From: Firmicutes bacterium HGW-Firmicutes-4
GTDB lineage: Bacteria; Bacillota; Clostridia; Eubacteriales; Eubacteriaceae
NCBI GenBank assembly: GCA_002841405.1
Contig: PGZR01000024.1
Coordinates: 1 to 39,271 of the forward strand
Length of the DNA: 39,271 nucleotides
Reading direction: 5' to 3'
Shown here: piece after piece, positions 16,818-39,034 of the stretch
How positions within the stretch are numbered: the stretch's first letter is position 1
Layout: each line of letters begins with the position of its first letter
The notes under the pieces: model-generated
Told to the model about the DNA's origin: nothing
Seen by the model: only the letters and a program-made list of their open reading frames with translations
The model's database searches: none
Made by a program: the position numbers and the translations under genes

Positions 16818-17522
16818 CTAATCGAAGGAAGCGATTGCCTCCAACCCGGAATCCTCACCGGTAAAGTACATCAGACCCCAACCAATGGGGTGATCTTTTT
16901 CATCCATCAGCTTCTGCTCAACAACCAGAACCGGATCGCCGTCCATAATATCCAGCACCTGACTGACTTCCCCTTTGGCTGCCATAGCCCTGATTTTAAG
17001 TTTTTTGGTCATCGCAAAAATCGAGTTCTTCTTAGCCACCATTTCCGGAAAGGTTGCGTAGCGGATCTCTTTTTCGACGATCGGAATGCCCCGATAATAG
17101 GGGATATATTTGATGTCGAAGGCCTTGACAACACCGTCGCTGACAAACACCCGTTTTACCACAATGACATGCTTATTTTCGGGGATTTCCAGATTAAAAC
17201 CCACCTCATAGCTGGGCTTCACCACATTGACCTCAATCAACCGGATTTCCTCACCCTTTTTCTCAGTAGTCATCATTTCATCAAAATGCAGCGTATAAGA
17301 ATCCAGATTCGGCTCACAGACATAGTTGCCTTTGCCCGGAATTGAGTAAATATAGCCCTCATTGACAAGCACAGCCAAACCTTTTCTGACTGTCATACGA
17401 CTGACATTAAACTCTTCACAAAGGAGATTTTCTGATTGTATGGCATCACCCGGTTTTATTTCTTCACTGGTTATTTTATATTTTATTGCATCAACTATTT
17501 TTAAATATTCGGGGGATCCCAT
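16818..17522 (-). CDS. GntR-family regulator with UTRA domain (copy 1)
   Basis: The 234-residue protein has an N-terminal winged helix (about residues 5-70: YLKIVDAIKYKI, IKPGDAIQSENLLCEEFNVSRMTVRKGLAVLVNEGYIYSIPGKGNYV), typical of the HutC/FarR subfamily of GntR. A UTRA effector-binding domain follows from about residue 85 (VIVVKRVFVSDG, IVEKEIRYATFPEM, GDPVLVVEQKLMDE). Such proteins bind DNA as dimers and release it on binding a small ligand; the ligand here is unknown. The gene starts 17 bases after the corrinoid gene, so the two are probably made together. A paralogue with the same neighbour lies at 34.6-35.3 kb. Candidate operators are the TGTATATACA palindrome at 19299-19308 and the repeats at 20151-20170. 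Confidence 0.88.
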   Translation of the reverse strand: MGSPEYLKIVDAIKYKITSEEIKPGDAIQSENLLCEEFNVSRMTVRKGLAVLVNEGYIYSIPGKGNYVCEPNLDSYTLHFDEMMTTEKKGEEIRLIEVNVVKPSYEVGFNLEIPENKHVIVVKRVFVSDGVVKAFDIKYIPYYRGIPIVEKEIRYATFPEMVAKKNSIFAMTKKLKIRAMAAKGEVSQVLDIMDGDPVLVVEQKLMDEKDHPIGWGLMYFTGEDSGLEAIASFD

Positions 17523-17539
17523 TTTTCTACCACCTTGGT

Positions 17540-18199
17540 CTATTTATCGTTATTTTTTTTCCCTGTTTTTTCGAGCATCCATAACTTGCATTTTTCAACA
17601 CCGGTCATCACATCTTTCGTGGCAAAATCTGCTCCCACAATCTCGGCTGCTTTTTCATCAATAACGGCGCCACCGATAATCACCCGATAATCATCCCGAA
17701 TTCCCCGGTTAACCAATTCACAGGACACCGCCCGCATTTCATAAATGGTTTCCTGCTGCATACCGCTCATTCCAATAATATCTGGTTTGGCGGTTTCAAT
17801 GGCTTCCATGACCTGATAAAGGGAAACATCGGTTCCCAGATCAATCAGTTCAAAGCCCGCCGTTCTGGCAAAGGAACCAAAAATATTTTTGCCGATATCG
17901 TGACAATCACCGGATACCGAAAATAGCAGTAATCTGCCGATTTTATTTTTGGGTGTCACTTTGGTAATTTCTTTTAATTCTTCGAGTTCCATCACTTCCT
18001 GAAAAATGATCCCGGCAAAAATCAAATCCGCAATAAAATAATCGCTGGTTTCGTATAGTTTGCCGACCCGCTCCATTCCAGTTTGCAGCCAATTGAAAAT
18101 GTCAATTGGTTTGAACCCCTTTCGAATCGCAATCCGAACAAGCTCCAGGGTTCGATCTTCGTATAATCCTTCGATGGATCTTACAATACTATGTTTCAT
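17540..18199 (-). CDS. Corrinoid protein 1 (methyltransferase carrier)
   Basis: The 219-residue cytoplasmic protein has the two-domain build of MtaC/MttC/MtvC-type corrinoid carriers: a four-helix cap (about 1-85, with GMERVGKLYETSDYFIADLIFAG) and a Rossmann-like cobalamin domain (about 88-210). The base-off/His-on motif DxHxxG is D98-C-H100-D-I-G103, so His100 should be the lower cobalt ligand. The conserved serine patch appears as GMSGMQQET rather than the more usual SxLLT type, and the GGA loop is IIGGAVID. It would accept a methyl group from a substrate-specific methyltransferase and pass it to tetrahydrofolate. No methyltransferase is adjacent: the next genes are a GntR regulator and a DUF1638 protein. 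A TTATCA-17-TATAAT promoter is upstream. Confidence 0.9.
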   Translation of the reverse strand: MKHSIVRSIEGLYEDRTLELVRIAIRKGFKPIDIFNWLQTGMERVGKLYETSDYFIADLIFAGIIFQEVMELEELKEITKVTPKNKIGRLLLFSVSGDCHDIGKNIFGSFARTAGFELIDLGTDVSLYQVMEAIETAKPDIIGMSGMQQETIYEMRAVSCELVNRGIRDDYRVIIGGAVIDEKAAEIVGADFATKDVMTGVEKCKLWMLEKTGKKNNDK

Positions 18200-18318
18200 A
18201 ATTTAAGTTCCACTCCCTTAAAGGTGTAAATTGAATACCACCGGCCATGTCTTCTTTTTATGGCTCTATTTAAATGATCACACCTGGAATTTCTAATTTA
18301 TTATTTAATATCCTCTTA

Positions 18319-18347
18319 ATTATAACCTAAATTATTTTTTTTGATAA
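18319..18347 (-). promoter_or_regulatory. Candidate sigma-A promoter of the corrinoid 1-GntR-DUF1638 unit
   Basis: TTATCA (18347-18342) and TATAAT (18324-18319) on the minus strand are 17 bases apart, leaving a leader of about 115 bases. Confidence 0.55.
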
Positions 18348-18388
18348 TGGTATAATTGATATAAATCTTGTAAATTTTATCAACTTTG

Positions 18389-18438
18389 AGTTTAGAGGCC
18401 TTTGCTCTTCATCATAGAAGAGCAAAAGTTACTAAACT
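18389..18438. repeat. Nested hairpin directly after focA-1
   Basis: Outer arms AGTTTAG/CTAAACT and a perfect inner 10-bp stem TTTGCTCTTC/GAAGAGCAAA around ATCATA make a 50-base stem-loop that starts seven bases after the focA-1 stop codon. No T run follows on either strand, so it is not a standard terminator; it may protect the mRNA 3' end. Confidence 0.6.
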
Positions 18439-18444
18439 GTTAGT

Positions 18445-19224
18445 TTATGCCGATATTTTTTTTGCGTAAGTAAAATGATAACAGGCTGGAATAATAATGG
18501 CACCGCCAATTATATTTCCCAAGGTTACCGGCAGAATATTATTCAGGAAGGCCTGGGCCCAGGTTACATCGGCACCACAGAAAATTCCCATAGGAATGAA
18601 GTACATGTTGGCCACACTATGTTCAAATCCAGACAAAACAAAGAGCATAATCGGGAACCAAATGGCAAAAATCTTACCAATAACATCTTTGGCACCAGAT
18701 TGCATCCAGACGGCCAGACAAACCAGCATGTTACAGAAAATTGCCCGGATAATCAATGGCATGAGCGGAATTGCAATCTTCGCTTCAGCAATACCAATCG
18801 CTTTTGCAGCCATTGCTTCGCCATAGAGACCGCTTTTTGACATTAAATAAGCTATTAAAACCGAACCGATTAGGTTGGCCATCCAAACTACACCCCAGTT
18901 ACGGAGCATCGCGCCGACGGTAATTTCCTTTTTGAAAACCGATAAGGTCATCAGATTATTACCTGTAAATAACTCGGCACCGCATAACACCACCAGCATC
19001 AAACCAACCGGGAACACACCGGCACCAATATACTTAGCAACGGTCGCTTCAAAACCCGTGCCAGCACCAGCCGTAATAACGGTAAAACCATAAGCTCCAA
19101 ATCCAATAAACACACCTGCAAAAATACCCAAAATGAGCATTTTGCTTATTGGAAGCTTGGCTTTGTTATTACATCCATTGACCATGTTCTCGCAAATTTC
19201 TGCGGGACTAAAAAAATTATTCAC
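18445..19224 (-). CDS. focA: Formate/nitrite-family channel (FocA/FdhC), copy 1
   Basis: The 259-residue membrane protein belongs to the FNT family of pentameric channels. Six membrane segments can be placed (about residues 27-50, 62-85, 108-128, 158-178, 185-208 and 230-252). Typical FNT segments are GFGAYGFTV, GAELFTGNNLMTL and LSGFEHSVANM with the central pore histidine. Its neighbours (formate dehydrogenase, fhs near copy 2) point to formate rather than nitrite. The GTG start at 19224 follows AGGAGGAG by a few bases. The second copy at 38.3-39.0 kb is about 90% identical over its whole length. A promoter with a palindrome over its -35 region lies about 60 bases upstream. Confidence 0.93.
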   Translation of the reverse strand: MNNFFSPAEICENMVNGCNNKAKLPISKMLILGIFAGVFIGFGAYGFTVITAGAGTGFEATVAKYIGAGVFPVGLMLVVLCGAELFTGNNLMTLSVFKKEITVGAMLRNWGVVWMANLIGSVLIAYLMSKSGLYGEAMAAKAIGIAEAKIAIPLMPLIIRAIFCNMLVCLAVWMQSGAKDVIGKIFAIWFPIMLFVLSGFEHSVANMYFIPMGIFCGADVTWAQAFLNNILPVTLGNIIGGAIIIPACYHFTYAKKISA

Positions 19225-19275
19225 CCTCTCCTCCTTGAATAAAGTTTTCCGATTTTCATGAAATCGTTTGTCGAA

Positions 19276-19308
19276 ATTATACCATACTTATATCGACCTG
19301 TATATACA
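19276..19308 (-). promoter_or_regulatory. focA-1 promoter with overlapping palindromic operator
   Basis: On the minus strand an extended -10 TGGTATAAT ends at 19276. The -35 region 17 bases upstream (TATACA) lies inside the perfect palindrome TGTATATACA (19308-19299). A related half-site TTTGTA lies further upstream (about 19320-19315). The palindrome has the size and AT core of GntR/UTRA operators; binding by the nearby GntR proteins is inferred only. Confidence 0.55.
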
Positions 19309-19393
19309 AATATCTACAAATCTTCGTTTTTCAAGGTAAAAATGAAGCTTGTTTTTGTCGTTCTGGTTAATGCTTTCCAAAATAAAAAAGGAT

Positions 19394-19422
19394 AAAAAGA
19401 GGAGCCTGCGCGCTTCTTTTTA
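19394..19422 (-). terminator. Terminator of corrinoid protein 2
   Basis: On the minus strand AAAAAGAAGC and GCTCCTCTTTTT pair with one mismatch around a GC-rich loop, with a T run. It lies about 50 bases after the stop codon. Confidence 0.65.
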
Positions 19423-19472
19423 CCCTTCGATTTGTGGATTGTTTATTGGTTATTCACTGTCGGATGTCCGGC

Positions 19473-20102
19473 TTATACCCATCCCTGACAGATTTTTACG
19501 CCTTCGGCGGCATTGGTCGTAAATTGATCAGCACCGACGTACTCGCAGGATTCTTTGGTTACCGGGTTTCCGCCGATGATTACCTTGGCATCAATGCCGG
19601 CAGCTTTCAGGGCATCAACCGTTTCTTTCATGGAGTCAATCGCCAGTGTTAAAACCCCGCTCATACCGATAATTGCTGGTTTGCATTCTTTGGCTTTTTC
19701 AACAAAGATTTCTGGGGCCACGTCGATACCCAAATCAACCACTTCAAAACCAGCTGCTTCCGACATACTTTTGAAGATATTTTTTCCGATATCATGTAAA
19801 TCGCCATGAACGGTGCCGATGATGATGGTTCCGGCAACGGCCGAGTCATCACTGCCTAAAACTGGTTTTAAGACATTGATTGCTTCGGTTAATAATTCCC
19901 CGGCGAAAATCAGGTCGCCCACAAAATACTCGCCTTTTTCGAAAAGATCGCCGACAATCGCCATCCCGCCCTGACAGGCAGCTACCGCTTCCTGTGCTTC
20001 TGCTTCGGAGGGATTAGTCGTTACGAAATCATTGAGCAGGTCCATTACATCTTCTTCTTCTAAATCTCCAACTGCCTGTGTTAAAACCTTTAAATCCAGC
20101 AT
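19473..20102 (-). CDS. Corrinoid protein 2 (methyltransferase carrier)
   Basis: The 209-residue protein shows the helical cap (about 1-85, GDLFEKGEYFVGDLIFAGELLTEAI) and the cobalamin domain (about 90-209) of the MtaC/MttC family. The cobalt-binding motif is GDLHDIGKNIF, with D101, His103 and G106. SGVLTLAIDSMKETV supplies the serine/threonine patch and IIGGNPV the loop around the nucleotide tail. The protein is acidic overall. It is monocistronic, with its own strong promoter and terminator, and lies between formate dehydrogenase and focA-1. It is more like a canonical MttC than corrinoid protein 1. No methyltransferase gene is beside it, so the methyl donor is unknown. Confidence 0.92.
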   Translation of the reverse strand: MLDLKVLTQAVGDLEEEDVMDLLNDFVTTNPSEAEAQEAVAACQGGMAIVGDLFEKGEYFVGDLIFAGELLTEAINVLKPVLGSDDSAVAGTIIIGTVHGDLHDIGKNIFKSMSEAAGFEVVDLGIDVAPEIFVEKAKECKPAIIGMSGVLTLAIDSMKETVDALKAAGIDAKVIIGGNPVTKESCEYVGADQFTTNAAEGVKICQGWV

Positions 20103-20150
20103 TTTAATACCCTTTCTTCTGAAAAAAATCAGCTCATAAAAACTTGTGTG

Positions 20151-20170
20151 ACATGTGTGTACATGTTTGT
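20151..20170. repeat. Two 10-bp direct repeats downstream of the corrinoid 2 promoter
   Basis: ACATGTGTGT (20151-20160) and ACATGTTTGT (20161-20170) differ at one base, and a partial copy CTTGTGTG precedes them. They lie at or just after the expected transcription start of corrinoid gene 2, a good place for a repressor site. Confidence 0.55.
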
Positions 20171-20176
20171 AATCAT

Positions 20177-20205
20177 ATGATACACCTTTAGCCGCTGATT
20201 GTCAA
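20177..20205 (-). promoter_or_regulatory. Sigma-A promoter of corrinoid protein 2
   Basis: TTGACA (20205-20200) and TATCAT (20182-20177) on the minus strand are exactly 17 bases apart. Confidence 0.8.
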
Positions 20206-20306
20206 GTAAACGCTATCAATTTTTTGTCATTTTGTTTTGTTACAGCAGCTGTTGGTTCGGTCAGGGTACAGCTACTGCAATCCCTTTTTAAAGCGCGTCA
20301 GCCAAC

Positions 20307-20332: not shown

Positions 20333-20349
20333 TAGTAAAACATCCCTAA

Positions 20350-23025
20350 TTATTTGGCAATTCGAACTTTTGACACTTTCAGTGGCGGAATTTTAGCAAT
20401 CGGATCCACCGCCCCACCAGTCAGGCAGTTCGCTCCCTTTTCGCCATAATGGAACGGCATGAACAGATTATTTTCCATAATCCCTTCATTAAACCGTGTC
20501 TTCGCTGACACGCTTCCCCGGGGTGATGTGACCTTTATCACATCGCCTTCAGCGATTCCATATTCCAACGCTTTGGCTGGATTGATTTCCACAAACGCGT
20601 CACCAGCAAGCGCTTCAATTCCCGGAGTCCGTTTTGTCATGGTTCGGGTATGATAATGCTCCAGAATTCGACCGGTCATCAAAATAAGCGGGTATTCTTC
20701 ATCGGCCTGATCTTCTGGTGGGATATAATCAGCTATCATAAAGGCCCCCAGACCTCTGGTGAATTTTCCGGCATGCAGGAATTTTGTACCTTCTGAGTCT
20801 TTACTTAAACATGGCCATTGAATCCGGTCGCCATTACCCAGTCGCTCATGGGAAACGCCGGTATAACTTGGTGTAACTGCGGCAATCTCTTCCATAATTT
20901 CAGCCGCGCTGGTAAAATCAAAGCCTTTGACGCCCATTGCGGTAGCGATCATCCCAATAATTTCCCAGTCATTTTTAGAAACCCCAGGACCATCAACTGC
21001 TTTTCTTAACAGCTGAATCCGTCGCTCAGTATTGGTAAAGGTTCCATCTTTTTCAGCATAAACATAGGCCGGTAAGACAACATCGGCAAATTCAGTTGTT
21101 TCGGTCAGGAAAATATCCTGAACGACGATGAAATTGGCCTTTTCCAGAGATTCTTTGACATGATTGGTATTCGGATCTGAAACCATCGGGTTTTCACCCA
21201 TAATGTATAAAAATTTAATGGTGCCATCTCCAACTCCGTCAATAATTTCAGTTAAGGTTTTGCCCGTATTCTGTGGCATCTTTAATCCCCAGGCCTTTTC
21301 AAACTTTTCAATTACTTCAGGATTTGCGGTTTTTTGATAGCCGGGCAGATCGCCTGGTAATGCACCCATATCACAGGCTCCTTGAACATTATTCTGTCCG
21401 CGAAGCGGATTTACGCCGCAGCCCTCCCGACCAATTTTTCCGGTGAGCATGGCTAAATTGGCTGTTGACATAACCCCGTCAGTACCAGTATTAAATTGCG
21501 TAACACCCATCGAATAAAAGATTCCGCCGCGATCCTTAGTCGCATAAAGAATCCCTGCTTTTCGCATTTCAGCTGGATCCACACCACAAATTTCAGCACA
21601 TTTTTCGACTGTGATGGTGTTCATGAATTCTAAAAATGTATCGTAACCTTCCGTTCGTTCATTAATAAAGTTTTTATCCTCAAGACCGGCATCCAGAATG
21701 GCCCGCATCAGTCCATTGAATAGTGGGACGTTTGTGCCGGGTTTGATCTGCAAATAAACATCCGCATAGTCGGCCAGTTCAATCTTTCGCGGTTCAGCAA
21801 CAATCAAGGCTGCCCCCTGAGCTTTCCGCTGTTTTATTTTTGCGCCGATAACCGGATGTGTTTCGGTCGTGTTGGAACCTGAAACCAGCATTACATCCAT
21901 CATCGCTATTTCTTCAATGCTGTTAGTCATGGCTCCACTGCCAAAAGATTTAGCCAAGCCAGCGACTGTCGAAGCATGGCATAGCCGCGCACAATGATCA
22001 ACGTTATTTGTTTCACCGACGGTTCTGATGAACTTCTGGAAAACATAATTATCTTCATTGGTACAACGCGCTGACGATAATCCGGCCACTGCCTGAGGTC
22101 CTTCGACTTTGGCTTCTTTAAGCTTTTGGACGACTAATGAAACCGCCTCTTCCCAGGTTGCCTCTTGTAAGACACCGTCTTTTCGAATCAACGGCGTTGT
22201 TAAACGATCGGGACTGCCAACGAAATCGTAAGCAAAACGGCCTTTTACACACAGCAAATTATCATTGACATGGCCCTCGGTGCTGAATACATCGGTAATC
22301 TGATTGTCAATTACTTTTAAGTTCAAGGTACAGCCTACTCCACAATAGGGACAAACCGTTTGAACCTGTTTGGCGTAACTGAACGGTTTAAACTGTTTCG
22401 GTGCCAGCGCCCCGGTTGGACATACCGCTATACAGTTTCCACAACTGACGCAATCTGTTTTGCCTCTTGGCAAATCATTGACAGTCTTAATGATGTTATC
22501 CTTATCAGGATCAAAACCGGCTAAGATATGATTGCATTGTAAATAGTCACATGCTTTGACACAGCGACTACATAAAACACACTTGCTGGGATCATACGTA
22601 TAAAACGGATTCGATTCATCAATCGGCCGGTCCGCATACCCCTCAGTTCCCTCCACTTTGTATGGATCATAATCAATCAAATTCGCATTTTGTTCGACAA
22701 AGAAACAAGCCTCATACTTATAACAAGACATACAATCAAATTTATGATCCACCATTAATACTTTTAGTGACTTACGGCGCTCGTTTCTAACTACAAATGT
22801 GTCGGTATTAACCACCATACCCTCAACAACTGGAGTTGAACATGCTTTCTCTAATTCTTTTGATCCGGCTACCTCGACCAAACACATCCGACAGGTTCCA
22901 TCTGGCGTGAAATCTTTAAAACTACACAGGGTTGGAATTTCAATGCCAATAGAACTCGCTGCCTTTAAAATTGTTGTACCACGTTCGACACTGATATTCT
23001 GTCCATCAATTATTAAATCAACCAT
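20350..23025 (-). CDS. fdhF: Formate dehydrogenase catalytic subunit, cysteine type, with N-terminal iron-sulfur domains
   Basis: The start is ATG 23025 after AAAGGGG; an earlier in-frame ATG overlaps the promoter. The 891-residue protein has, in order, a [2Fe-2S] domain (C34, C45, C48, C62), a NuoG-type site (His93, C98, C101, C107), a double [4Fe-4S] ferredoxin (C149-C152-C155-C159 and C192-C195-C198-C202), the molybdopterin-domain cluster (C225, C228, C232, C259), and the bis-molybdopterin domains. The metal-ligand residue is Cys349 in CARLCHAST, not selenocysteine. It should interconvert formate and CO2, feeding electrons through its FeS chain. This NuoG-like extension differs from the short FdhF of the Acetobacterium hydrogen-dependent CO2 reductase. 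No electron-transfer partner or FdhD gene is adjacent, so the redox partner is unknown. Mo versus W cannot be told. Confidence 0.93.
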   Translation of the reverse strand: MVDLIIDGQNISVERGTTILKAASSIGIEIPTLCSFKDFTPDGTCRMCLVEVAGSKELEKACSTPVVEGMVVNTDTFVVRNERRKSLKVLMVDHKFDCMSCYKYEACFFVEQNANLIDYDPYKVEGTEGYADRPIDESNPFYTYDPSKCVLCSRCVKACDYLQCNHILAGFDPDKDNIIKTVNDLPRGKTDCVSCGNCIAVCPTGALAPKQFKPFSYAKQVQTVCPYCGVGCTLNLKVIDNQITDVFSTEGHVNDNLLCVKGRFAYDFVGSPDRLTTPLIRKDGVLQEATWEEAVSLVVQKLKEAKVEGPQAVAGLSSARCTNEDNYVFQKFIRTVGETNNVDHCARLCHASTVAGLAKSFGSGAMTNSIEEIAMMDVMLVSGSNTTETHPVIGAKIKQRKAQGAALIVAEPRKIELADYADVYLQIKPGTNVPLFNGLMRAILDAGLEDKNFINERTEGYDTFLEFMNTITVEKCAEICGVDPAEMRKAGILYATKDRGGIFYSMGVTQFNTGTDGVMSTANLAMLTGKIGREGCGVNPLRGQNNVQGACDMGALPGDLPGYQKTANPEVIEKFEKAWGLKMPQNTGKTLTEIIDGVGDGTIKFLYIMGENPMVSDPNTNHVKESLEKANFIVVQDIFLTETTEFADVVLPAYVYAEKDGTFTNTERRIQLLRKAVDGPGVSKNDWEIIGMIATAMGVKGFDFTSAAEIMEEIAAVTPSYTGVSHERLGNGDRIQWPCLSKDSEGTKFLHAGKFTRGLGAFMIADYIPPEDQADEEYPLILMTGRILEHYHTRTMTKRTPGIEALAGDAFVEINPAKALEYGIAEGDVIKVTSPRGSVSAKTRFNEGIMENNLFMPFHYGEKGANCLTGGAVDPIAKIPPLKVSKVRIAK

Positions 23026-23053
23026 TCTTTTTCCCCTTTCTTTTAGTACGCTA

Positions 23054-23082
23054 AGTATATTCGAAATAGCTGTTGTTGTCAT
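23054..23082 (-). promoter_or_regulatory. Sigma-A promoter of formate dehydrogenase
   Basis: ATGACA (23082-23077) and TATACT (23059-23054) on the minus strand are 17 bases apart, about 30 bases before the start codon. The rest of the 23083-23325 stretch is AT-rich and shows no gene or clear structured element. Confidence 0.65.
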
Positions 23083-23416: not shown

Positions 23417-25600
23417 CTATTTTACTTTCTGCCAGAAGCCCCGGTAGCCGAGGATCCGGGTGGTATTTAAGATGGTCAGGATTGCGGCGCCGACATCGGC
23501 GAAAATGGCCAGATACATTTCACCCATGCCAAAGAAGGTCAGGGTCAGTACCGTGATTTTAATCCCCAATGCCAGGACGATGTTCTGAATCATGATCCGG
23601 CGGGTATATTTGGCAATATCCACCGACTTGACAATATCCATGGGATCATCTTTCATTAAAATGATATCGGCGGCTTCAATGGCGGCATCCGAACCCAGAG
23701 CGCCCATGGCAATACCGGCATCGGCCATGGCCAGCACTGGAGCATCGTTCATGCCGTCGCCGACAAAGATGGTTTTACCATCCTTATTATCCGCTTTAAT
23801 TTTTTCAAAAGCGGCCACCTTATCCTGGGGTAAACAATCGCCCCACACTTCATCCAGCTGCAGCTGCTGACCGATCTGGTTGGCAACCCGGACATTATCA
23901 CCGCTGAGCATGACCGTTTTTTTGGTACCCAGCCGTTTCAGCTGCTGCAGGGTGGCCAAAGCATTTTCCTTAACCATATCCCCCAGCACCAGATAACCAG
24001 CCAGTTGATTGTTGATGGTGATATACACGAGGGTGCCGGCTTCATTATTTTCAGCCGGGCTAATCTGATGATCCAACAACAGACTCTTGTTTCCAGCCAG
24101 GATCACCTGATCGTCGACTTCAACCCGGGTTCCTTTGCCAGGAATTTCGGCATAATTTTTTAGCCGTGTTTCGTCTACTTCCGCTTGGGCATAAACAGTG
24201 ATCGCCTTGCCGATGGGATGGTTGGAATAGTGTTCCCCAGCGGCCGCGGCAGCCAATAACTCGGCTTCGCTAAACCCGGCTGCCGGTACGGTTTTGATGA
24301 CCTTGAATTCACCCTGGGTCAACGTTCCGGTTTTGTCAAAAACAAAGACATTGGTCTGATAAAGAACATCCAGATAATTTCCGCCTTTAATCAGCACCCC
24401 TTCTTTGGAGGCCCGGCCGATACCTCCAAAATAACTGATCGGTATCGATAACACCAGGGCACAGGGACAGGAGACCACCAGAAAGATCAAGCTCTGATAA
24501 AACCAGGTTTCCCAGGAGGCCCCGGGAATCACCAGCGGCGGAATAATGGCCATAGCAATGGCGGAAAATACCACAATGGGGGTATAATAATGAGAAAATC
24601 GGGTAATAAACTTTTCCGTTTTACCTTTTTTATCACTGGCTTCTTCAATCAGATGCATAATTTTCATGGCGGTGGAGTTTTCATAGTCTTTGGTGACCAG
24701 CACCTTCAGTACTGCGTTGCCATTAATCATCCCGCTGAGGATTTCATCCCCCTTTTCGACCTTGCGGGGGTAGGATTCCCCGGTCAACGGAGAGGTATCC
24801 AAATGTGAAACCCCTTCCATGACGATCCCATCCGCCGGAATTTTTTCGCCGGATTTAATCACCAACACATCCCCCACCTTAACTTGTTTAGCATCAATGA
24901 CCATCTCACCATCGGGACCCACCCGATTGGCAGTAATCGCATTGAAGCTGATGGTTTCAGCAATCGACCGGCGGGCATTGTCGACGGCCCGATCCTGGAA
25001 ATATTCGCCGATCCCAAAAAAGATCATGACCCCGGCGGCTTCCGGCCATTCGGTTAAGACTAACGCGCCAAAGGTGGCGATGGTCATCAGGAAATTTTCG
25101 TCGAAGATCTGACCTTGACCGATATTTCGAAAGGCCAGCCGAATCACCCGATACCCGGCTAGTACATAAGCGGCCAGGAAAACCCCGATGGTGACCATTC
25201 CCAGATTGGCCGGTAGCATTACCTGGAACACAAAACCCAGAATAAATAACCCGATGGCTGTGATCAACTCCAGTTTCTGCCGTTTATCCATATCACCCAA
25301 AGCCTGCCCGAATTCAGGGACGGCCTGGCTGTTCTGCTGACCACCGCTACAGTCGCAGGAATCAGTCCCAACTGTCGATTTCCGGCTTTGGGAAACCACC
25401 ACGTGGGGTTCCAGCGAATGAACCAGTTTGACGATCGCATCATAGGTTTCTTCCTGAGTAAAGCCTTCCCCTTCGTCAATCACCAGTGAACCGGTTGCCA
25501 GGGACAGGCTGGCCGCTCTGACATTGGGCATTTTGCCAACCAGCTTTTCGATTTTTCCGGCACAGTTGGCACAGTTTAGTCCTTCTAAAAATACTTTCAT
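23417..25600 (-). CDS. cadA: Zn/Cd-translocating P1B-type ATPase
   Basis: The 727-residue pump has an N-terminal heavy-metal domain with GLNCANCAGKIEK (CxxC, residues about 8-20) and a short Cys-rich linker DSCDCSGG. It then has eight expected membrane segments, with the transport motif SCPCALVLSIP in the sixth. Catalytic motifs are DKTGTLT (phosphorylated Asp), HPIGKA, SGDN and GDGMNDAPVLAMADAGIAMG. The CPC motif plus a lysine-bearing segment after GDGMNDAP fits the P1B-2 (Zn/Cd/Pb) class. It exports metal across the cytoplasmic membrane with ATP. It is 24 bases behind an ArsR/SmtB repressor gene, forming a two-gene metal-resistance unit controlled by the operator at 25954-25967. Confidence 0.92.
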   Translation of the reverse strand: MKVFLEGLNCANCAGKIEKLVGKMPNVRAASLSLATGSLVIDEGEGFTQEETYDAIVKLVHSLEPHVVVSQSRKSTVGTDSCDCSGGQQNSQAVPEFGQALGDMDKRQKLELITAIGLFILGFVFQVMLPANLGMVTIGVFLAAYVLAGYRVIRLAFRNIGQGQIFDENFLMTIATFGALVLTEWPEAAGVMIFFGIGEYFQDRAVDNARRSIAETISFNAITANRVGPDGEMVIDAKQVKVGDVLVIKSGEKIPADGIVMEGVSHLDTSPLTGESYPRKVEKGDEILSGMINGNAVLKVLVTKDYENSTAMKIMHLIEEASDKKGKTEKFITRFSHYYTPIVVFSAIAMAIIPPLVIPGASWETWFYQSLIFLVVSCPCALVLSIPISYFGGIGRASKEGVLIKGGNYLDVLYQTNVFVFDKTGTLTQGEFKVIKTVPAAGFSEAELLAAAAAGEHYSNHPIGKAITVYAQAEVDETRLKNYAEIPGKGTRVEVDDQVILAGNKSLLLDHQISPAENNEAGTLVYITINNQLAGYLVLGDMVKENALATLQQLKRLGTKKTVMLSGDNVRVANQIGQQLQLDEVWGDCLPQDKVAAFEKIKADNKDGKTIFVGDGMNDAPVLAMADAGIAMGALGSDAAIEAADIILMKDDPMDIVKSVDIAKYTRRIMIQNIVLALGIKITVLTLTFFGMGEMYLAIFADVGAAILTILNTTRILGYRGFWQKVK

Positions 25601-25624
25601 GCTGATAACCTCTTTTCAATATCC

Positions 25625-25936
25625 CTAATGATGACTTAAATGGGTGATCGTTAGCAGCACTATCACTTCCACATGGGCATCATCCAGATGATAAAATTTC
25701 ATTTGACCTTCTTTTCGGTAACTGATGATTCGTTTATCTTTTAGGATTCGCAATTGATGGGATACTGCCGTACGACTGACATCTACCAGACTGACAATAT
25801 CATTCACACACAACTCGCCATTTTCAAACAGCGCTGAGACAATTTTTATCCGGGTGGGATCACCCAGCACCTTAAAAAATTCGGCTACCTCAAACAAGGT
25901 TTCCTCACTGTGATCGTTTTTCAAAACTTTATTCAT
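25625..25936 (-). CDS. ArsR/SmtB-family metal-sensing repressor (CzrA/CadC-like)
   Basis: The 103-residue winged-helix dimeric repressor has FKVLGDPTRIKIVSALFENGELCVNDI followed by the recognition helix VSRTAVSHQLRILKDKRII. The C-terminal helix DDAHVEVIVLLTITHLSHH has the Asp-x-His and His-x-x-His spacing of the alpha-5 zinc site of SmtB and CzrA. The ELCVND stretch keeps only one cysteine of the CadC alpha-3N motif. Zinc-type sensing through alpha-5 is therefore more likely than cadmium sensing through alpha-3. It should repress itself and the pump until metal binds. AAGGAG precedes the ATG. Confidence 0.9.
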   Translation of the reverse strand: MNKVLKNDHSEETLFEVAEFFKVLGDPTRIKIVSALFENGELCVNDIVSLVDVSRTAVSHQLRILKDKRIISYRKEGQMKFYHLDDAHVEVIVLLTITHLSHH

Positions 25937-26115: not shown

Positions 26116-27273
26116 ATGAGTAATACCAAACGATTATTGGACGAACGATTGATCCGTATTGAAAAAGCTGTTAATCTGGAAAAACCAGACCGGATTCCTA
26201 TTTTTGCCTTAAACGGCCCTGAGGTCGCCGTTGACTATTGCGGCCGTCACCTTAAAGCCGCCACCTGGGATCTGGAGATAATCCGGGAATGCCTGCCCAT
26301 TTACTATCGGGATATGAAGGTGGATGGCACCTCCTCGGCTTTTTTACGATGCCCCGGGACGTACACAACCATCGGTTCCCAGAATTTTGTCCCAAATAAG
26401 GATGGCTTTATGCAGCATCCCGAGGTCTGCGGAATGCTGGCCGATGAGTATGAAGCCCTGATTAAGGATCCCTTTAAGACTTTGGTGGATAAGGTCCTGC
26501 CCCGGCAATACAAGGCCTTTGATCAGCCCGGGATGCTGGGCGGATTGAACCTGGCCAAGGGGGCCCTCAGTCATCTGCGCCATACCAAAATCCTCCAGGA
26601 AATTGACGCCCACTGTAGTGAGACAGTGGGCGTCCCGATTATTTCGGCTAACATGATCGAAGCCCCCTTTGATTTCCTGGCTGATCAACTCCGCAGTTTT
26701 AAGGGTATTTCGGTGGATATGCATCGCTGTCCCGAGCTGGTGGAGCAGGCCTGTGAAGCCCTGTTTCCGCTGCTGCTGCGGTGGGCTGTGACCAGCTATC
26801 CCGGGCCGCCCAAAAAAATCCCGGCTATTTTTATGCCCCTGCATATGCCGTCATTTTTAAACCCCAAACAGTTTGAACGTTTTTACTGGCCGACCTTCTC
26901 CCGGCTGGTCAACACCCTTACCGGCATGGGCTATACGGTGACCTTATTTTTTGAAGGTAACTGGTCGAAATTATATGATTATCTGGGCAGCCTGAACCCC
27001 CATGTGGTGGGGATTTTTGAATACGGCGAACTAAAGACGATTAAGGAAAAGGTCGGCCAGACCATGTGCATCATGGGTAACTACCCCATTTCAGCCCTAA
27101 AATCCCAGTCCACCGAAGAATGTCTTGATCTAGCCAAAAAAATGATTGATGCAGGGGCTCCCGGAGGTGGCTATATTTTTACCACCGGCAAAGCCATTCT
27201 CCGGGGCAAAGGCCTGGATTTGGAAAAACTTCAGGCGGTCCATCAGTATGTAATCGATCACGGAAAATATTAG
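26116..27273 (+). CDS. Uroporphyrinogen decarboxylase-family protein, methyltransferase-like
   Basis: The 385-residue soluble protein shows the TIM-barrel UROD fold used by corrinoid methyltransferases such as MtaA and MtbA: RIEKAVNLEKPDRIPIFAL at the start, MHRCPELVEQACEALFPLL near residue 200, IFMPLHMPSFLNPKQFERFYWPTFSRLV near 240, and AGAPGGGYIFTTGKAILRG near the end. True heme-pathway HemE motifs are absent. The His-x-Cys zinc site of MtaA-type enzymes is not seen where expected; that strand reads VTLFFEGNW. It may therefore demethylate a substrate by another mechanism or have a new role. It is a candidate partner for the orphan corrinoid proteins of this region, but its substrate is unknown. 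A 50-codon gene follows 11 bases later. Confidence 0.8.
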   Translation: MSNTKRLLDERLIRIEKAVNLEKPDRIPIFALNGPEVAVDYCGRHLKAATWDLEIIRECLPIYYRDMKVDGTSSAFLRCPGTYTTIGSQNFVPNKDGFMQHPEVCGMLADEYEALIKDPFKTLVDKVLPRQYKAFDQPGMLGGLNLAKGALSHLRHTKILQEIDAHCSETVGVPIISANMIEAPFDFLADQLRSFKGISVDMHRCPELVEQACEALFPLLLRWAVTSYPGPPKKIPAIFMPLHMPSFLNPKQFERFYWPTFSRLVNTLTGMGYTVTLFFEGNWSKLYDYLGSLNPHVVGIFEYGELKTIKEKVGQTMCIMGNYPISALKSQSTEECLDLAKKMIDAGAPGGGYIFTTGKAILRGKGLDLEKLQAVHQYVIDHGKY

Positions 27274-34322: not shown

Positions 34323-34339
34323 GATCAAGCAGTAAACGT

Positions 34340-34415
34340 GATCTCGTAGCTCAGCTGGCAGAGCACTACCTTGACATGGTAGGGGTCGATGGTTCAAGTC
34401 CATTCGGGATCACCA
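34340..34415 (+). tRNA. tRNA-Val (anticodon GAC)
   Basis: The 76-base gene folds as a standard cloverleaf. The acceptor stem GATCTCG pairs with CGGGATC. The D arm contains TAGCTCAGCTGGCAGAGCA, the anticodon stem CTACC/GGTAG frames the loop TTGACAT with anticodon GAC, and the T arm carries GGTTCAAGTCC. The discriminator A and CCA end are encoded. It reads GUC (and GUU) valine codons. It is a single tRNA gene, not part of a cluster. Confidence 0.96.
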
Positions 34416-34429
34416 ATTATTAAATAACA

Positions 34430-34466
34430 AAGCCATTTGCAGATTGAATGCAAATGGCTTTTATTT
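34430..34466 (+). terminator. Terminator of the tRNA gene
   Basis: AAGCCATTTGC and GCAAATGGCTT form a perfect 11-bp stem around a 9-base loop, followed by a T-rich run. Confidence 0.85.
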
Positions 34467-34515
34467 TATTTTAACCGAAATTTAACCGATTAAAACAACA
34501 TTTTTATTTAGCCTA

Positions 34516-34643: not shown

Positions 34644-35348
34644 TTAGAAAGTAGTTTCCGCTGTCAGGGTAAAGTAATTCTTTTTGATATAAAATTCATT
34701 GTAGCTGATCGGCATGTTGTCTTCCATCGAAATAATATTCTGAGATACCAGAAAGCAGCAGTCGTCATGATCAATCTGCAGGTTTTCCCGAACTTCCAGG
34801 GGGGGATGAACAATATCAATGTTGAGGATTTTTTTATGCTGAAAATGAAGCTTACCCTTTTCCATAATGCCATGGAAATTGGCAAAATTAATCACATCTT
34901 CGACAATCGGATTGCCCTTCTGATAGGGCAAAAAGATGGTTGAATACTGAATCACCTCATCTTTTATTTTAGTGGCCTTCTGAATTTTAATGACTTTTTC
35001 AAAAGAACCAATTTTAAGTTCCCGCATCAGTTTCCGACCTGGGGTAATGACTCCGACGCTGACCAGCTTGACCTCTTCGACCTCCCCTTTGAGGCTGTCA
35101 ATTTCATCAAAATAAAACTGATACTGATTAGCCGAGGGTTCACAGACATAATTCCCTTTACCGGGAATGGTATAAATATATTTTTCATTGACCAGCAGTG
35201 CCAGACTTTTACGCAGGGTAGTCCGGCTGACATCAAACTGTTCCGCCATTTCATATTCCGACGGCAGCAGATCCCCGGGTTTTAAGATCCCCTTTTCGAT
35301 TTTCCCTTTAATATCATTGACGATATCAAGATATAGAATTTTTCTCAT
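34644..35348 (-). CDS. GntR-family regulator with UTRA domain (copy 2)
   Basis: The 234-residue protein is a paralogue of the GntR protein at 16.8-17.5 kb, with the same length. Its winged helix reads YLDIVNDIKGKI, LLPSEYEMAEQFDVSRTTLRKSLALLVNEKYIYTIPGKGNYVCEP; the last 20 residues of this stretch are nearly the same in both copies. The UTRA domain (about residue 80 on) has diverged more (VIKIQKATKIKDE, IVEDVINFANFHGI, CCFLVSQNIISMED), so the two may sense different ligands while binding similar DNA. It starts 14 bases after corrinoid gene 3, as in copy 1. No DUF1638 gene follows. A strong terminator ends the unit. Confidence 0.88.
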   Translation of the reverse strand: MRKILYLDIVNDIKGKIEKGILKPGDLLPSEYEMAEQFDVSRTTLRKSLALLVNEKYIYTIPGKGNYVCEPSANQYQFYFDEIDSLKGEVEEVKLVSVGVITPGRKLMRELKIGSFEKVIKIQKATKIKDEVIQYSTIFLPYQKGNPIVEDVINFANFHGIMEKGKLHFQHKKILNIDIVHPPLEVRENLQIDHDDCCFLVSQNIISMEDNMPISYNEFYIKKNYFTLTAETTF

Positions 35349-35362
35349 AGCCCATCACCCAT

Positions 35363-35992
35363 TCATTGTAAAAGCCATTGCTTGCAGATATTAACCCCTT
35401 CGATGGCATCGCTGGAGAAGCCGTCGGCCCCCACATATTTGGCATAGTCGGTTCCCGCCAGAGCCCCTCCCAGAATGATTTTAATATCATCCCGGAGTCC
35501 CTGAGCAACGATCTCATCGATGACTTCTTTGATATTTTCCACCACCGAGGTGAGAATTCCGCTGATCCCCAGAATCGCCGGTTTTTCAGTGCGAATAATT
35601 TCGATAAACCGTTTGGTGGAAACATCGGTGCCCATATCGATAACCTCAAACCCTTCAGCCCGGAGCATGCTGATAAAAATGTTTTTACCAACATCGTGGA
35701 TATCGTCAAAGACCGTTCCCACCACGATCTTGCCCTGGCTGCGGCCGTCAATCAATTGCGTGCTGTCCATGCCCATCATCCCCAACAGGTTGGATACCAG
35801 TTCCCCGGCCATAATCAGATCGGCGATATAATATTCCCCTTCTTCGTAGCGAATCGCCACCCGCTGCAAAGCAAAATTAAGCTGATTGGCGATGTCTTTT
35901 TTTGCTTTTCCCGTTTCCAGTTCGGCCGCCACCAGGGCCATCGCCCGTTTTTCATCAATTGCCTCAACTGCGGCAATAATTTTTGTCTCCAT
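35363..35992 (-). CDS. Corrinoid protein 3 (methyltransferase carrier)
   Basis: I start the gene at ATG 35992 behind GGGTGG, which gives 209 residues starting METKIIAAVEAIDEKRAM; the open frame upstream has no start with a clear ribosome site. The helical cap (about 1-80, YEEGEYYIADLIMAGELVSNLLG) is followed by the cobalamin domain with DDIHDVGKNIF (D97, His99, G102 as the DxHxxG motif), SGILTSVVENIKEVI and ILGGALAG. Of the three corrinoid proteins this and number 2 keep the SGxLT patch; number 1 does not. It lies directly before GntR copy 2 and divergent from fbp. No methyltransferase or corrinoid-reducing activator gene is near. Confidence 0.9.
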   Translation of the reverse strand: METKIIAAVEAIDEKRAMALVAAELETGKAKKDIANQLNFALQRVAIRYEEGEYYIADLIMAGELVSNLLGMMGMDSTQLIDGRSQGKIVVGTVFDDIHDVGKNIFISMLRAEGFEVIDMGTDVSTKRFIEIIRTEKPAILGISGILTSVVENIKEVIDEIVAQGLRDDIKIILGGALAGTDYAKYVGADGFSSDAIEGVNICKQWLLQ

Positions 35993-36078
35993 CGATTCCA
36001 CCCGTTCATTTAAAACTAAGATTTTGTAGCATTGGACCCGGGCTTTGACCTGGTCCGGATCAATTGCTGATACTTTCC

Positions 36079-36107
36079 ATTTTATCACGGAATCCGCCGT
36101 TTGTCTT
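36079..36107 (-). promoter_or_regulatory. Candidate promoter of the corrinoid 3-GntR 2 unit
   Basis: AAGACA (36107-36102) and TAAAAT (36084-36079) on the minus strand are 17 bases apart. This position supports the shorter start at 35992. The divergent fbp gene has a TATAAT box at 36154-36159. Confidence 0.55.
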
Positions 36108-36210
36108 TAGCTGGTCGAGATATTTTTTAATGGCTTTTTAATGCTTTCAAGTGTATAATCAGGACGAAAACATTTTCATTTTCAATTCGAATTTTAAGAT
36201 AGAGGTCGAT

Positions 36211-38205
36211 ATGAACGGTTATACAAAAGCACAACTTCAAGAAAATCAGAAATACCTGGAGCTATTGTCCCAAAGCTTTCCCAACATTACCAGCGCTGTG
36301 GGTGAGGTTGTCAATCTGAAAGCGATTCTGAACCTTCCCAAGGGGACTGAGCATTTTCTCACCGATATTCACGGTGAGCACGAAGCCTTTAACCATGTGA
36401 TGCAAAACGCTTCCGGCGCCATCAAACGCAAGGTCCACCAGGAACTGGGCAACACCATTGCCTTTGAAGAACTGGAAGAGTTATCCACCCTGATTTACTA
36501 TCCCGAAGAAAAAATTGATTTGATCAAAAAGGAACGGAGTCGGGATTCCCTGGACAACTGGTACAAACTGACCATTTACCGGCTGGTGAAGGTGTGCCGT
36601 GCGGCGGCCTCAAAATACACCCGGTCCAAGGTCCGTAAAGCCCTGCCTAAAGACTTTGCCTATATTATGGAAGAGCTGCTCCAAGAAGATGAACACCGTT
36701 TTAACAAACGGGAATATTACCAGGAGATTATTGAAAGCCTGGTTAAACTGGAACGGGCCCAGCACTTTATTGTTGAGATTTCTGGAGTGATCAAACGGCT
36801 GACCATTGATCATCTGCATATTATTGGCGATATTTACGACCGGGGCGCTGGTCCCGACGAGGTGATGGACACCCTGATGCGCCACCATTCCCTCGATATG
36901 CAATGGGGCAACCACGATATTCTCTGGATGGGCGCCGCCGCCGGCAATGCCGCCTGTATCGCAAATGCTGTCCGGATTGCCCTCCGTTACGCCAACATGG
37001 ATGTGCTGGAAAACGGCTATGGCATCAACCTGCTGCCACTTGCGTCTTTTGCCAACCGGGTTTACAGCGACGATGCCTGTACCAAATTTTTGCCCAAAAT
37101 TTCCGATAGCCACACCGTCTCAGACCAGGAAATTGCGCTGATGGCCAAAATGCACAAGGCTATTGCGATGATCCAGTTCAAGCTCGAAGAATGCATGATC
37201 GACAATCATCCCGAATATAACATGGCCAAGCGCCAGCTGCTGCGCCGGATCGATTTTGATAACGGCACCGCAACTGTCGAGGGGGTTGTTTACCCGCTTA
37301 ACGATACAAACTTCCCGACTCTTGATCCAGCTGATCCCTGTGTCCTGACCGAGGAAGAAACCCTGGTCATGGACCGCTTGGTTTACGCTTTCCTGCACAG
37401 TGAAAAACTCCAGAAACATATCCGTTTTATGTATGCCAAAGGTAGCATGTACAAGGTCTTCAACGACAACCTGCTCTTTCATGCCTGTGTATTGTTGAAT
37501 GACGACGGCAGTTTTAAAGAAAAAGAAATCGCCGGTAAAAGTTACGCCGGTAAAAACCTGATGGATAAATTTGACCAGATGGCCCGGGAAGCCTATTTCG
37601 GCAAAACCGATATGGATGAAAACCCCACCCGCACTGATTTTCTGTGGTTCCTTTGGTGCCATGAGGATTCGCCGCTGTTCGGCAAAGATAAAATGGCTAC
37701 TTTTGAACGTTATTTCATTGATGATAAAACACCCCATAAAGAATATCATGCGCCGTTTTATCTACTAATTGACGAGGATGATGAACTGGCCCGAAAAATT
37801 CTGGTGGAATTTGGGGTTGACCCGGACCAGGGCCACCTAATCAACGGTCACATTCCGGTTAAGGCCACCTCCGGCGAAAGTCCAATTCGAGCCAAAGGCA
37901 AACAGCTAGTCATCGACGGCGGCTTTGCCCGGGCCTATCAGAAAACCACCGGCATTGCCGGCTACACCTTAACCTATAATTCCTACGGGCTGATTCTAAT
38001 CAGTCACGACCCCTTTGAATCGGTTGAGAAGGCGATTGCCGACGGGGTTGACATCAAATCCACCCTGATGGTGGTAGAAAAAACCACCGAGCGAAAACGG
38101 GTTCGTGACACCGATACCGGTAAAGCCATCATGGCCCAGGTAGAAGACCTGGAAATGCTGATCACCGCCTACCGCAAAGGTCTGATCAAAGAAAAACAAT
38201 ATTAA
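36211..38205 (+). CDS. fbp: Fructose-1,6-bisphosphatase, class III
   Basis: The start is ATG 36211 behind AGAGGT; a GTG at 36151 overlaps the TATAAT box and is rejected. The 664-residue protein is the large Firmicute-type (class III) fructose bisphosphatase of gluconeogenesis, of the metallophosphoesterase fold. Metal-binding motifs are FLTDIHGEHEAF, IIGDIYDRGAGPDEV and MQWGNHDILWMGAAAG, and a later NGHIPVKATSGESPIRAKGKQLVIDGGFARAY. The C-terminal part (SYGLILISHDPFESVEKAI) is also typical. An acetogen growing on one-carbon substrates needs this step to make hexoses. It lies between the corrinoid 3 and focA-2 genes but on the opposite strand, splitting a gene order that is continuous at 17.5-19.2 kb. 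Confidence 0.94.
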   Translation: MNGYTKAQLQENQKYLELLSQSFPNITSAVGEVVNLKAILNLPKGTEHFLTDIHGEHEAFNHVMQNASGAIKRKVHQELGNTIAFEELEELSTLIYYPEEKIDLIKKERSRDSLDNWYKLTIYRLVKVCRAAASKYTRSKVRKALPKDFAYIMEELLQEDEHRFNKREYYQEIIESLVKLERAQHFIVEISGVIKRLTIDHLHIIGDIYDRGAGPDEVMDTLMRHHSLDMQWGNHDILWMGAAAGNAACIANAVRIALRYANMDVLENGYGINLLPLASFANRVYSDDACTKFLPKISDSHTVSDQEIALMAKMHKAIAMIQFKLEECMIDNHPEYNMAKRQLLRRIDFDNGTATVEGVVYPLNDTNFPTLDPADPCVLTEEETLVMDRLVYAFLHSEKLQKHIRFMYAKGSMYKVFNDNLLFHACVLLNDDGSFKEKEIAGKSYAGKNLMDKFDQMAREAYFGKTDMDENPTRTDFLWFLWCHEDSPLFGKDKMATFERYFIDDKTPHKEYHAPFYLLIDEDDELARKILVEFGVDPDQGHLINGHIPVKATSGESPIRAKGKQLVIDGGFARAYQKTTGIAGYTLTYNSYGLILISHDPFESVEKAIADGVDIKSTLMVVEKTTERKRVRDTDTGKAIMAQVEDLEMLITAYRKGLIKEKQY

Positions 38206-38244
38206 CAAAAAAGAACCCCTGCCTAGGCAGGGGTTCTTTTTTGT
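38206..38244. terminator. Bidirectional terminator between fbp and focA-2
   Basis: AAAAAAGAACCCCTGCC and GGCAGGGGTTCTTTTTT form a perfect palindromic stem around TAG/CTA-type bases, with T runs in both directions. Confidence 0.9.
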
Positions 38245-38260
38245 TTTTTTCAGTCTCTGA

Positions 38261-39034
38261 TTATGCTGCTTTTTTAGCATAGGTAAAATGATAACAAACC
38301 GGAATAATAATGGCCCCGCCAATAATGTTCCCCAGTGTTACCGGGATAATATTGTTCAGGAAAGCCTGAGTCCAGGTTACATCAGCACCACATAAAATGC
38401 CCATCGGGATGAAGAACATATTGGCCACACTATGTTCAAATCCGGACAAGACGAACAGCATGATCGGGAACCAGATGGCAAAAATCTTGCCAATGATGTC
38501 TTTGGCACCAGATTGCATCCAGACAGCCAGACAAACCAGCATGTTACAGAAAATAGCCCGAATAATCACCGGCATCAAGGGAATGGCAATTTTAGCTTCT
38601 GCAATACCAATCGCTTTGGCAGTCATCGCTTCACCGTACAGGCCGCTTTGTGACATTAAATAAGCCAGCAACAGCGATCCGACCAGATTGGCAGCCCAAA
38701 CCACACCCCAGTTGCGCAGCATCGCGCCAACCGTAATTTCTTTTTTGAATACCGATAAAGTCATCAGATTATTACCGGTAAACAGTTCGGCACCGCACAT
38801 GACCACCAGCATCAGACCGACCGGGAAGACTCCAGCACCGATATACTTAGCCAGGGTAGCTTCAAAGCCAGTTCCGGCCCCAGAAAGAATTACCGTAAAA
38901 CCATAGCCTCCAAAACCGATGAAGACGCCAGCAAAAATACCCAAAACGATCATTTTTCCGATTGACAGCTTGGCCTTATTATTACAGCCTTTTACCATGT
39001 TATCGCAGATTTCTGCGGGACTAAAAAAATTCAT
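38261..39034 (-). CDS. focA: Formate/nitrite-family channel (FocA/FdhC), copy 2
   Basis: The 257-residue channel is about 90% identical to the copy at 18.4-19.2 kb, with only about 25 differences by eye, mostly conservative and in membrane segments. FNT landmarks are the same: GFGGYGFTV, GAELFTGNNLMTL and LSGFEHSVANM with the pore histidine. It starts at ATG after AGGAG. It lies about 140 bases downstream of fhs, the formate-activating enzyme, on the same strand; a weak hairpin separates them. This makes formate the likely substrate. The TGTATATACA palindrome seen in front of copy 1 is not found here, so the two copies are probably regulated differently. Confidence 0.93.
   Translation of the reverse strand: MNFFSPAEICDNMVKGCNNKAKLSIGKMIVLGIFAGVFIGFGGYGFTVILSGAGTGFEATLAKYIGAGVFPVGLMLVVMCGAELFTGNNLMTLSVFKKEITVGAMLRNWGVVWAANLVGSLLLAYLMSQSGLYGEAMTAKAIGIAEAKIAIPLMPVIIRAIFCNMLVCLAVWMQSGAKDIIGKIFAIWFPIMLFVLSGFEHSVANMFFIPMGILCGADVTWTQAFLNNIIPVTLGNIIGGAIIIPVCYHFTYAKKAA

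Follow-up and report, generated by a model that had tools for sequence, protein, structure and literature searches.

Corrinoid protein–GntR/UTRA regulator gene pairs and their formate-channel neighbours in an Acetobacterium-related draft genome

Two gene neighbourhoods with one gene order

Two neighbourhoods of Firmicutes bacterium HGW-Firmicutes-4 were analysed, in each of which a gene for an FNT family channel (focA), a gene for a stand-alone corrinoid protein (Cor) and a gene for a GntR/UTRA regulator occur in this order. Both lie in the window, that is, the whole analysed stretch of 39,271 nucleotides (PGZR01000024.1), which is one contig of a 3.73 Mb draft genome (GCA_002841405.1); judged by the first regulator, GntR1, its closest named relatives belong to Acetobacterium. 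The initial annotation had reported the three-gene order twice on the minus strand and had proposed a functional unit, and the open reading frames (ORFs), strands and Pfam domains agree with the reported order. According to sequence comparison, what is conserved is the corrinoid–GntR/UTRA pair with its tight spacing, not FocA–corrinoid–GntR. The proposed unit thus held for the pair, which is real, co-inherited and old in both copies, and not for FocA as a fixed third member.

Copy 1 comprises focA1 in slot 1 (18445–19224, minus strand; PF01226, Form_Nir_trans, 1.5e-83), Cor1 (17540–18199, minus strand; PF02607, B12-binding_2, and PF02310, B12-binding; DxHxxG kept) and GntR1 (16818–17522, minus strand; PF00392 and PF07702). 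A gene for a DUF1638 protein follows GntR1 directly (16100–16795, minus strand; PF07796, 6.3e-46). Upstream of focA1 lies CorA, a catalytic-type corrinoid protein (19473–20102, minus strand), whose best PDB sequence match is 4jgi (1.5e-68), a Desulfitobacterium O-demethylase corrinoid protein.

Copy 2 is preceded, at the contig end, by the 3′ end of fhs (formate–tetrahydrofolate ligase, last 31 residues; 39179–39271, minus strand; PF01268, 3.5e-8, positions 526–556 of 556). The channel gene focA2 lies directly downstream (38261–39034, minus strand; PF01226, 1.6e-82). As annotated initially, fbp, encoding a Firmicute fructose-1,6-bisphosphatase, is inserted on the opposite strand between focA2 and Cor2 (FBPase_2, 36151–38205, plus strand; PF06874, 1.6e-296), and a bidirectional terminator-like hairpin (38204–38245, consensus match only) separates fbp from focA2. 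Cor2 (35363–36088, minus strand; B12-binding_2 and B12-binding) has a more probable start at 35992 than at 36088; in an alignment of 12 sequences, all 12 share it. GntR2 follows (34644–35348, minus strand; GntR and UTRA by Pfam), with a predicted terminator-like hairpin behind it (34569–34522, minus strand). Just downstream of GntR2 are a tRNA gene (34377–34510, minus strand) and an overlapping antisense HPnc0260 match (34340–34412, plus strand). CorA, the DUF1638 gene, the fhs 3′ end and the terminator-like hairpins are additions to the initial annotation.

Both regulators carry an N-terminal GntR winged helix-turn-helix (wHTH) and a C-terminal UTRA domain, each above the Pfam gathering score, and score below the cut-off of every NCBIfam model listed. 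FNT family membership of FocA is given by PF01226 and TIGR00790, both above cut-off; the FocA equivalog model TIGR04060 reached 202 bits against a cut-off of 290. Adjacency to fhs fits formate specificity of the channel. The reported divergence pattern was also borne out: FocA1 and FocA2 are 89.5% identical (DNA 83.7%), Cor1 and Cor2 37.8%, and GntR1 and GntR2 38.4%.

The corrinoid–GntR/UTRA pair and its neighbours

A contig scan with the GntR alignment was used to collect relatives, and the best 80 of 195 stretches encoding them formed the locus set (labels beginning with G, C and L are ours, for genomes, contigs and loci). In 75 of the 80 loci, the gene immediately upstream of GntR encodes a corrinoid protein (71 of 79 with called ORFs, plus L139, L142, L150 and L154 by tblastn). 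Taking the ORF starts as called, the spacing is 30 nt or less in 69 of 71 loci, and 38 of the 71 have the two genes overlapping or abutting. Because the spacing is so tight, translational coupling of Cor and GntR is likely. Distances among Cor proteins are correlated with those among their GntR partners (r = 0.95 for 75 pairs, a value inflated by shared species history), and none of 2000 permutations was as high. Within the genome itself, four of the five UTRA genes adjoin one of 29 corrinoid-cap matches. The GntR1 type is rare in a class-wide sample of 148 genomes, since matches at 1e-30 were found in four, two of them same-genus.

Outside Acetobacterium, the neighbours of 42 type-1 loci include MtrH (32 loci), UroD (28), CorA-type corrinoid proteins (26), RamA-like proteins (22) and DUF1638 (21), a set that resembles the gene complement of O-demethylases. 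There, fhs (6) and FocA (4) are scarcer. By the Pfam domains of reference proteins, the MtrH-like genes encode Pterin_bind, the RamA-like genes RACo domains and fhs FTHFS. Fitness data have linked DUF1638, together with a RamA-like protein, to methionine synthesis that depends on B12 (accessible part of PMC5764234). The co-occurrence of all three genes across relatives, which the initial annotation had named as a check, is seen for the corrinoid gene with GntR, and for FocA in a minority of loci.

The corrinoid tree was inferred from 56 hand-picked proteins, including 25 of the 71 locus pairs and seven of the 43 CorA-type proteins; among the 29 own-genome hits, L007, L023, L024, L026, L028 and L029 were without a usable ORF, and four were repeat rows. 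In this tree, 30 paired proteins split from 26 catalytic-type proteins on a branch with support of 85/94, not starred, and CorA groups with CorA copies of other genera, which adjoin UroD. The GntR tree (29 rows) recovers the same main groups, and in both trees copy 2 groups with Alkalibacter pairs and C36-type pairs (98/90 and 95/91). The matching trees and correlated distances indicate that the pair is old and has been inherited as a pair, the two copies having diverged before the genus. When the copies were tested as sister clades together with their orthologs, the arrangement was rejected for GntR (approximately unbiased, AU, test, p = 0.002) but not for Cor (p = 0.25). Cor and GntR, without FocA, may have been duplicated together long ago. 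Placing Cor1 and Cor2 of the window alone as sisters was rejected too, with the orthologs left outside, and this excludes only a within-species duplication.

The DxHxxG cofactor-ligand motif is kept in 74 of the 75 paired corrinoid proteins. An LRD-type insertion, considered as a residue signature of the paired proteins, was not discriminating (50/75 versus 25/43).

FocA is distributed differently from the pair. Slot 1, between CorA and Cor1, holds FocA in 7 of 18 same-genus genomes and not in the other 11, while G018 gave no locus; tblastn on seven FocA-less loci found no FocA remnant between the predicted operator and Cor1. At slot 2, six relatives whose flanks are complete (L181, L185, L188, L192, L197 and L199) lack focA beside fbp–Cor2–GntR2, and in L181 and L185 fhs is followed by fbp with no focA between. 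The order fhs–focA–fbp occurs in the window, G012, G011 and G009, and also in G004 (read by eye); the contig of G001 begins 480 bases before focA2. The window thus resembles other acetogen fhs–focA neighbourhoods in having focA2 after fhs, and differs in that fbp–Cor2–GntR2 happens to come next. Further cases of fhs adjoining focA are L075, L085, L092 and L093, and L140, L146, L147 and L149 are additional loci in which no more than 10 kb separates FocA from GntR1.

In the FocA tree, slot-1 and slot-2 proteins intermix and do not form two clades; slot-1 FocA of G003 and G015 groups with fhs-linked FocA of G005 and G014 (98/96). Because fhs–focA recurs and the slots intermix in the tree, the older partner of FocA is probably the formate-activating enzyme fhs, and FocA is an optional, younger neighbour of the corrinoid–GntR pair. 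Some focA copies, in G002 and G006, were matched in pieces or with stops (L084, 9307–10075; L088), which is consistent with focA being dispensable.

A three-gene functional unit of FocA, corrinoid protein and GntR/UTRA, duplicated whole, would account for the collinear order, for the predicted GntR1 operator at focA1 described below, for the four loci with FocA near GntR1 and for the Cor sister clades that were not rejected. Set against this are the 11 slot-1 and six slot-2 loci where FocA is absent, its intermixed tree, its 89.5% identity beside 38% for Cor and GntR, and the rejected GntR sister clades, so that joint duplication of all three genes is not supported. Gene trees, named by the initial annotation as a check, agree for Cor and GntR and not for FocA. 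With fbp and a terminator-like hairpin between focA2 and Cor2, the three-gene unit is largely refuted for copy 2, and overall we regard it as very improbable. The convergent genes fbp and focA2 are separated by the hairpin at 38204–38245, which makes a common transcript of focA2 and Cor2–GntR2 unlikely.

A predicted GntR1 operator and its candidate regulon

The training set for the motif held 42 upstream regions, taken from type-1 Cor genes or, in five loci without a called Cor, from GntR. Before motif learning and the target test, 14 of 56 type-1 loci had been dropped by eye as near-copies. The learnt palindrome, gTATATACatGTATATAc, had a log-likelihood of 73.1 versus 29.8 for shuffled sequence, and the operator pattern of type-1 pairs is the palindromic GTATATAC-N2-GTATATAC. 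Scanning type-1 loci gave 59 sites of at least 14 bits, of which 56 are intergenic.

With the matrix learnt from regions of other records, the only matches of at least 9 bits in the window are two overlapping palindromic ones (19.5 and 13.1 bits) at 19290–19317 on the minus strand. The exact core TGTATATACA lies at 19299–19308; a core match alone is near chance, and the longer pattern is also exact. This predicted operator overlaps the −35 element of a promoter-like site for focA1 (TATACA-17-TATAAT, the −10 being preceded by TG; 19276–19304, minus strand; consensus match only, 10/12), an arrangement that fits repression. Of the formate link that had been proposed, the placement of focA1 under a predicted GntR1 operator therefore stands, and FocA as a fixed third member does not.

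For GntR2, alignment of 12 fbp–Cor2 gaps gave conserved blocks, from which no operator was called. A C36-like GntR type has another conserved block, ACAGATATGTACGTAAG or near, just before Cor (by eye), seen in L186, L187, L193, L200–L202 and L204. In L079 and L149, half-sites GTATATAC precede focA; the best matrix scores there were 9.8 and 8.9 bits, and these sites were not counted.

The clearest target in type-1 loci was mtrH, which was not in the training set: it carries a predicted site in 12 of 25 cases, compared with 4 of 386 other ORFs (p = 2e-13). Of the other untrained genes, FocA carries a site in 3 of 7 cases, and CorA, RamA and DUF1638 genes do so less often (counts below). In GntR2-type loci the site was found at mtrH in none of 12 cases and at one ORF of the class 'other' (1/272). 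Among same-genus genomes, the strict pattern gave 36 matches in 18 of 19 genomes, while the reversed pattern was found in 0 of 19; allowing up to two mismatches yielded background (25 matches versus 21 for the reversed pattern). Seventeen of the strict matches are placed at the GntR1 locus, 15 at mtrH, fhs or ramA, and four between rpiB and atpI. GntR1 is encoded in all 19 genomes at 89% identity or more; it is split in two frames in G018, the sole same-genus genome in which no site was found.

The sites between rpiB and atpI (LacAB_rpiB, ATPase_gene1) lie ahead of the ATP synthase gene. They are exact in G001, G002, G007 and G012 (loci L233, L244, L254 and L269), and this genome has one with a single mismatch (G000:C30:21141-21157, L208).

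Three strict matches occur in the genome studied here. One is the focA1 site, another precedes fhs on contig C214 by about 95 bp, and the third lies 0.45 kb behind mtrH on C134. The C134 site is near the contig end, and in the relatives L251, L252, L257 and L268 the equivalent site lies between mtrH and fhs. A second C134 site, matching the core only, lies between divergent mtrH and ramA-like genes. The gene fhs is multi-copy in this genome, and the window contig ends inside one copy.

A chance insertion of focA1 downstream of an existing operator, with no selected link between formate and GntR1, would agree with slot 1 being filled in only 7 of 18 genomes and with FocA adjoining fhs in several other genomes. 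It sits poorly with the site-to-focA distance, which is 82–85 bp in six of seven loci including the window (in L125 it is 48 bp when counted to the ORF start as called) although the FocA proteins at these loci are 66–94% identical to that of the window. Predicted sites at fhs copies also speak against it, as do L146 and L147, in which the site heads an mtrH–fhs–focA stretch, and G054, in which a 20.9-bit site stands in front of the cluster with focA, Cor, GntR and DUF1638. We consider such a chance origin unlikely. In G054 (L079/L140, 3262–10125), the genes directly headed by the site encode 2Fe-2S thioredoxin-like, Nuo51-like and iron-only hydrogenase proteins, and FocA, Cor, GntR and DUF1638 come after this hydrogenase-type run.

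Proposed role of the pair

From the pair, its neighbours and the operator-like motif with its positions, we infer two anciently diverged pairs with different recent neighbours, in which GntR1 represses a methyl-group/C1 regulon and Cor1 reports the corrinoid state; we give this reading a probability of roughly 0.6. GntR/UTRA proteins are mostly ligand-relieved repressors. GntR1 would bind the palindrome at promoters and repress its own Cor1–GntR1–DUF1638 stretch, mtrH (a methyl-tetrahydrofolate-type methyltransferase), the RamA-like activase and fhs, with focA1 added in this lineage. Methyl groups from demethylation would enter as methyl-tetrahydrofolate (methyl-THF) and be oxidised in part via formyl-THF towards formate, which would then be passed or re-activated; focA1 would have been recruited under the same switch. 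Such a predicted target set ties the entry of methyl groups (MtrH, activase) to the handling of formate (fhs, focA1), in keeping with growth on methyl groups. Cor1, whose gene immediately precedes that of GntR1, may be a B12-based sensor that reports the methyl or redox state of its bound corrinoid to GntR1. This role is suggested by the tight link to GntR1, by the separate position in the tree and by the further, catalytic corrinoid protein that 26 of 42 loci encode.

The main rival holds that Cor1 and Cor2 are ordinary methyl carriers, that GntR is a local operon regulator sensing a methylated substrate via UTRA and that the spacing reflects operon packing. UTRA domains bind small ligands, nearly all paired corrinoids keep DxHxxG, and MTTB-family methyltransferase genes (Pfam) adjoin a paired-type Cor on contig C95 of the same genome and in G034, in accordance with a catalytic role. 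Against ordinary carriers, the paired proteins are set apart in the tree (85/94, not starred), a separate CorA is available in those 26 loci, the constant neighbour is GntR and not a methyltransferase, and no methyltransferase gene directly adjoins copy 2. We judge this explanation a serious one, yet less probable than a Cor1–GntR1 signalling pair.

Several observations weigh against the signalling pair and its regulon, the MTTB-family neighbours among them. GntR is found without an adjacent corrinoid gene in 4 of 80 loci (L145, L151, L165 and L194), and in L189 the two genes are 0.5 kb apart. In FocA-less Acetobacterium, the site lies 0.2–0.5 kb upstream of Cor1, and a promoter-like site of Cor1's own is nearer. 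Sites of at least 14 bits were found in type-1 loci at only 13 of 37 paired Cor genes, 3 of 30 CorA, 2 of 19 RamA and 2 of 24 DUF1638 genes, and at none of 31 UroD and 4 fhs genes. On C134 of this genome the strict site lies behind mtrH, and the site ahead of mtrH is core-only; upstream of the fhs copy on C116, which probably precedes focA2, no site was seen. The strict pattern was not found in four of five g5 genomes despite GntR1 at 79% identity, which points to a looser or different pattern in those genomes; G019 (GntR1 at 61%) was likewise without a strict match, and Eubacterium callanderi L138 has only a looser 16.1-bit site. In L194 (2390–2627), fbp and GntR2 are neighbours and Cor2 is missing, and a GntR2-type regulator can therefore persist without a corrinoid neighbour.

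Mtv of Moorella is an O-demethylase system. The Odm and Vdm systems of Acetobacterium dehalogenans are named as such in the accessible part of PMC10418091. Likeness to such systems lies in the 4jgi-type CorA of the window and in the CorA, UroD, MtrH and RamA-like genes that accompany the pair elsewhere; the difference is that the window has no MtrH or RamA-like activase match. MtrH-like (Pterin_bind) and RACo-like genes are present on C134 of the same genome, with the operator-like sites described above. The window also encodes a UroD-family protein, a possible methyltransferase (26116–27273, plus strand; PF01208), about 6 kb from CorA on the opposite strand; among PDB entries, CdmB of A. dehalogenans (9rui, 7.4e-25) alone matched it with an E-value of 0.001 or better. 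Between them lies fdhF, encoding formate dehydrogenase alpha (20350–23082, minus strand; TIGR01591 above cut-off), with a predicted terminator-like hairpin behind it (20333–20310, minus strand). A zinc/cadmium-type P-type ATPase and an ArsR-family regulator are encoded between the UroD gene and fdhF (23417–25936). Elsewhere, a T-box leader (9227–9452, minus strand) precedes a 1032-aa ORF (5894–8992); Rfam at gathering scores gave only this T-box, the tRNA and HPnc0260 in the window, and no riboswitch.

The AerR gene lies next to its repressor gene, and the repressor, CrtJ, is not a GntR/UTRA protein. In this system of Rhodobacter capsulatus, a B12-binding protein is partnered with a DNA-binding repressor (accessible part of PMC5362033). 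It offers a precedent for the logic, as a stand-alone B12-binding protein is encoded next to a regulator, here Cor–GntR. The differences are the GntR/UTRA partner, the setting of anaerobic methyl metabolism and the putative nature of the Cor–GntR interaction; Cor1 was not classified as AerR because its partner is not a CrtJ/PpsR-type repressor. The B12 photoreceptor repressor CarH also links B12 binding to transcription control (accessible part of PMC4557120), but is one protein using coenzyme B12 and light, whereas here two genes and a GntR-kind helix-turn-helix are involved. Compared with GntR/HutC (UTRA) regulators, the wHTH, UTRA domain and GTATATAC-type predicted palindrome are shared, and the corrinoid gene alongside in most loci is the distinguishing feature. 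GntR-family regulators with B12-binding proteins in methyltransferase clusters are already in print for Eubacterium limosum; this passage of PMC4791908 was the nearest statement on the corrinoid–GntR pair found in the open-access literature, within the portions available.

The striking collinearity can thus be explained as two old pairs with younger formate neighbours. To our knowledge, little is known of the regulators that decide when methyl-using acetogens run the methyl branch towards formate and CO2. The analysis puts forward a regulator, a likely partner for it, an operator-like motif and a list of targets, all open to testing in harmless, culturable strains. More tentatively, a dedicated corrinoid protein, distinct from the methyl carriers, could serve anaerobic Firmicutes as a B12 sensor of methyl flux, its methyl-Co(III), Co(II) or Co(I) state gating a GntR/UTRA repressor that would set demethylation, the Wood–Ljungdahl methyl branch and formate passage together. 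If Cor1 is indeed a sensor, the pair would represent B12-based signalling outside light sensing.

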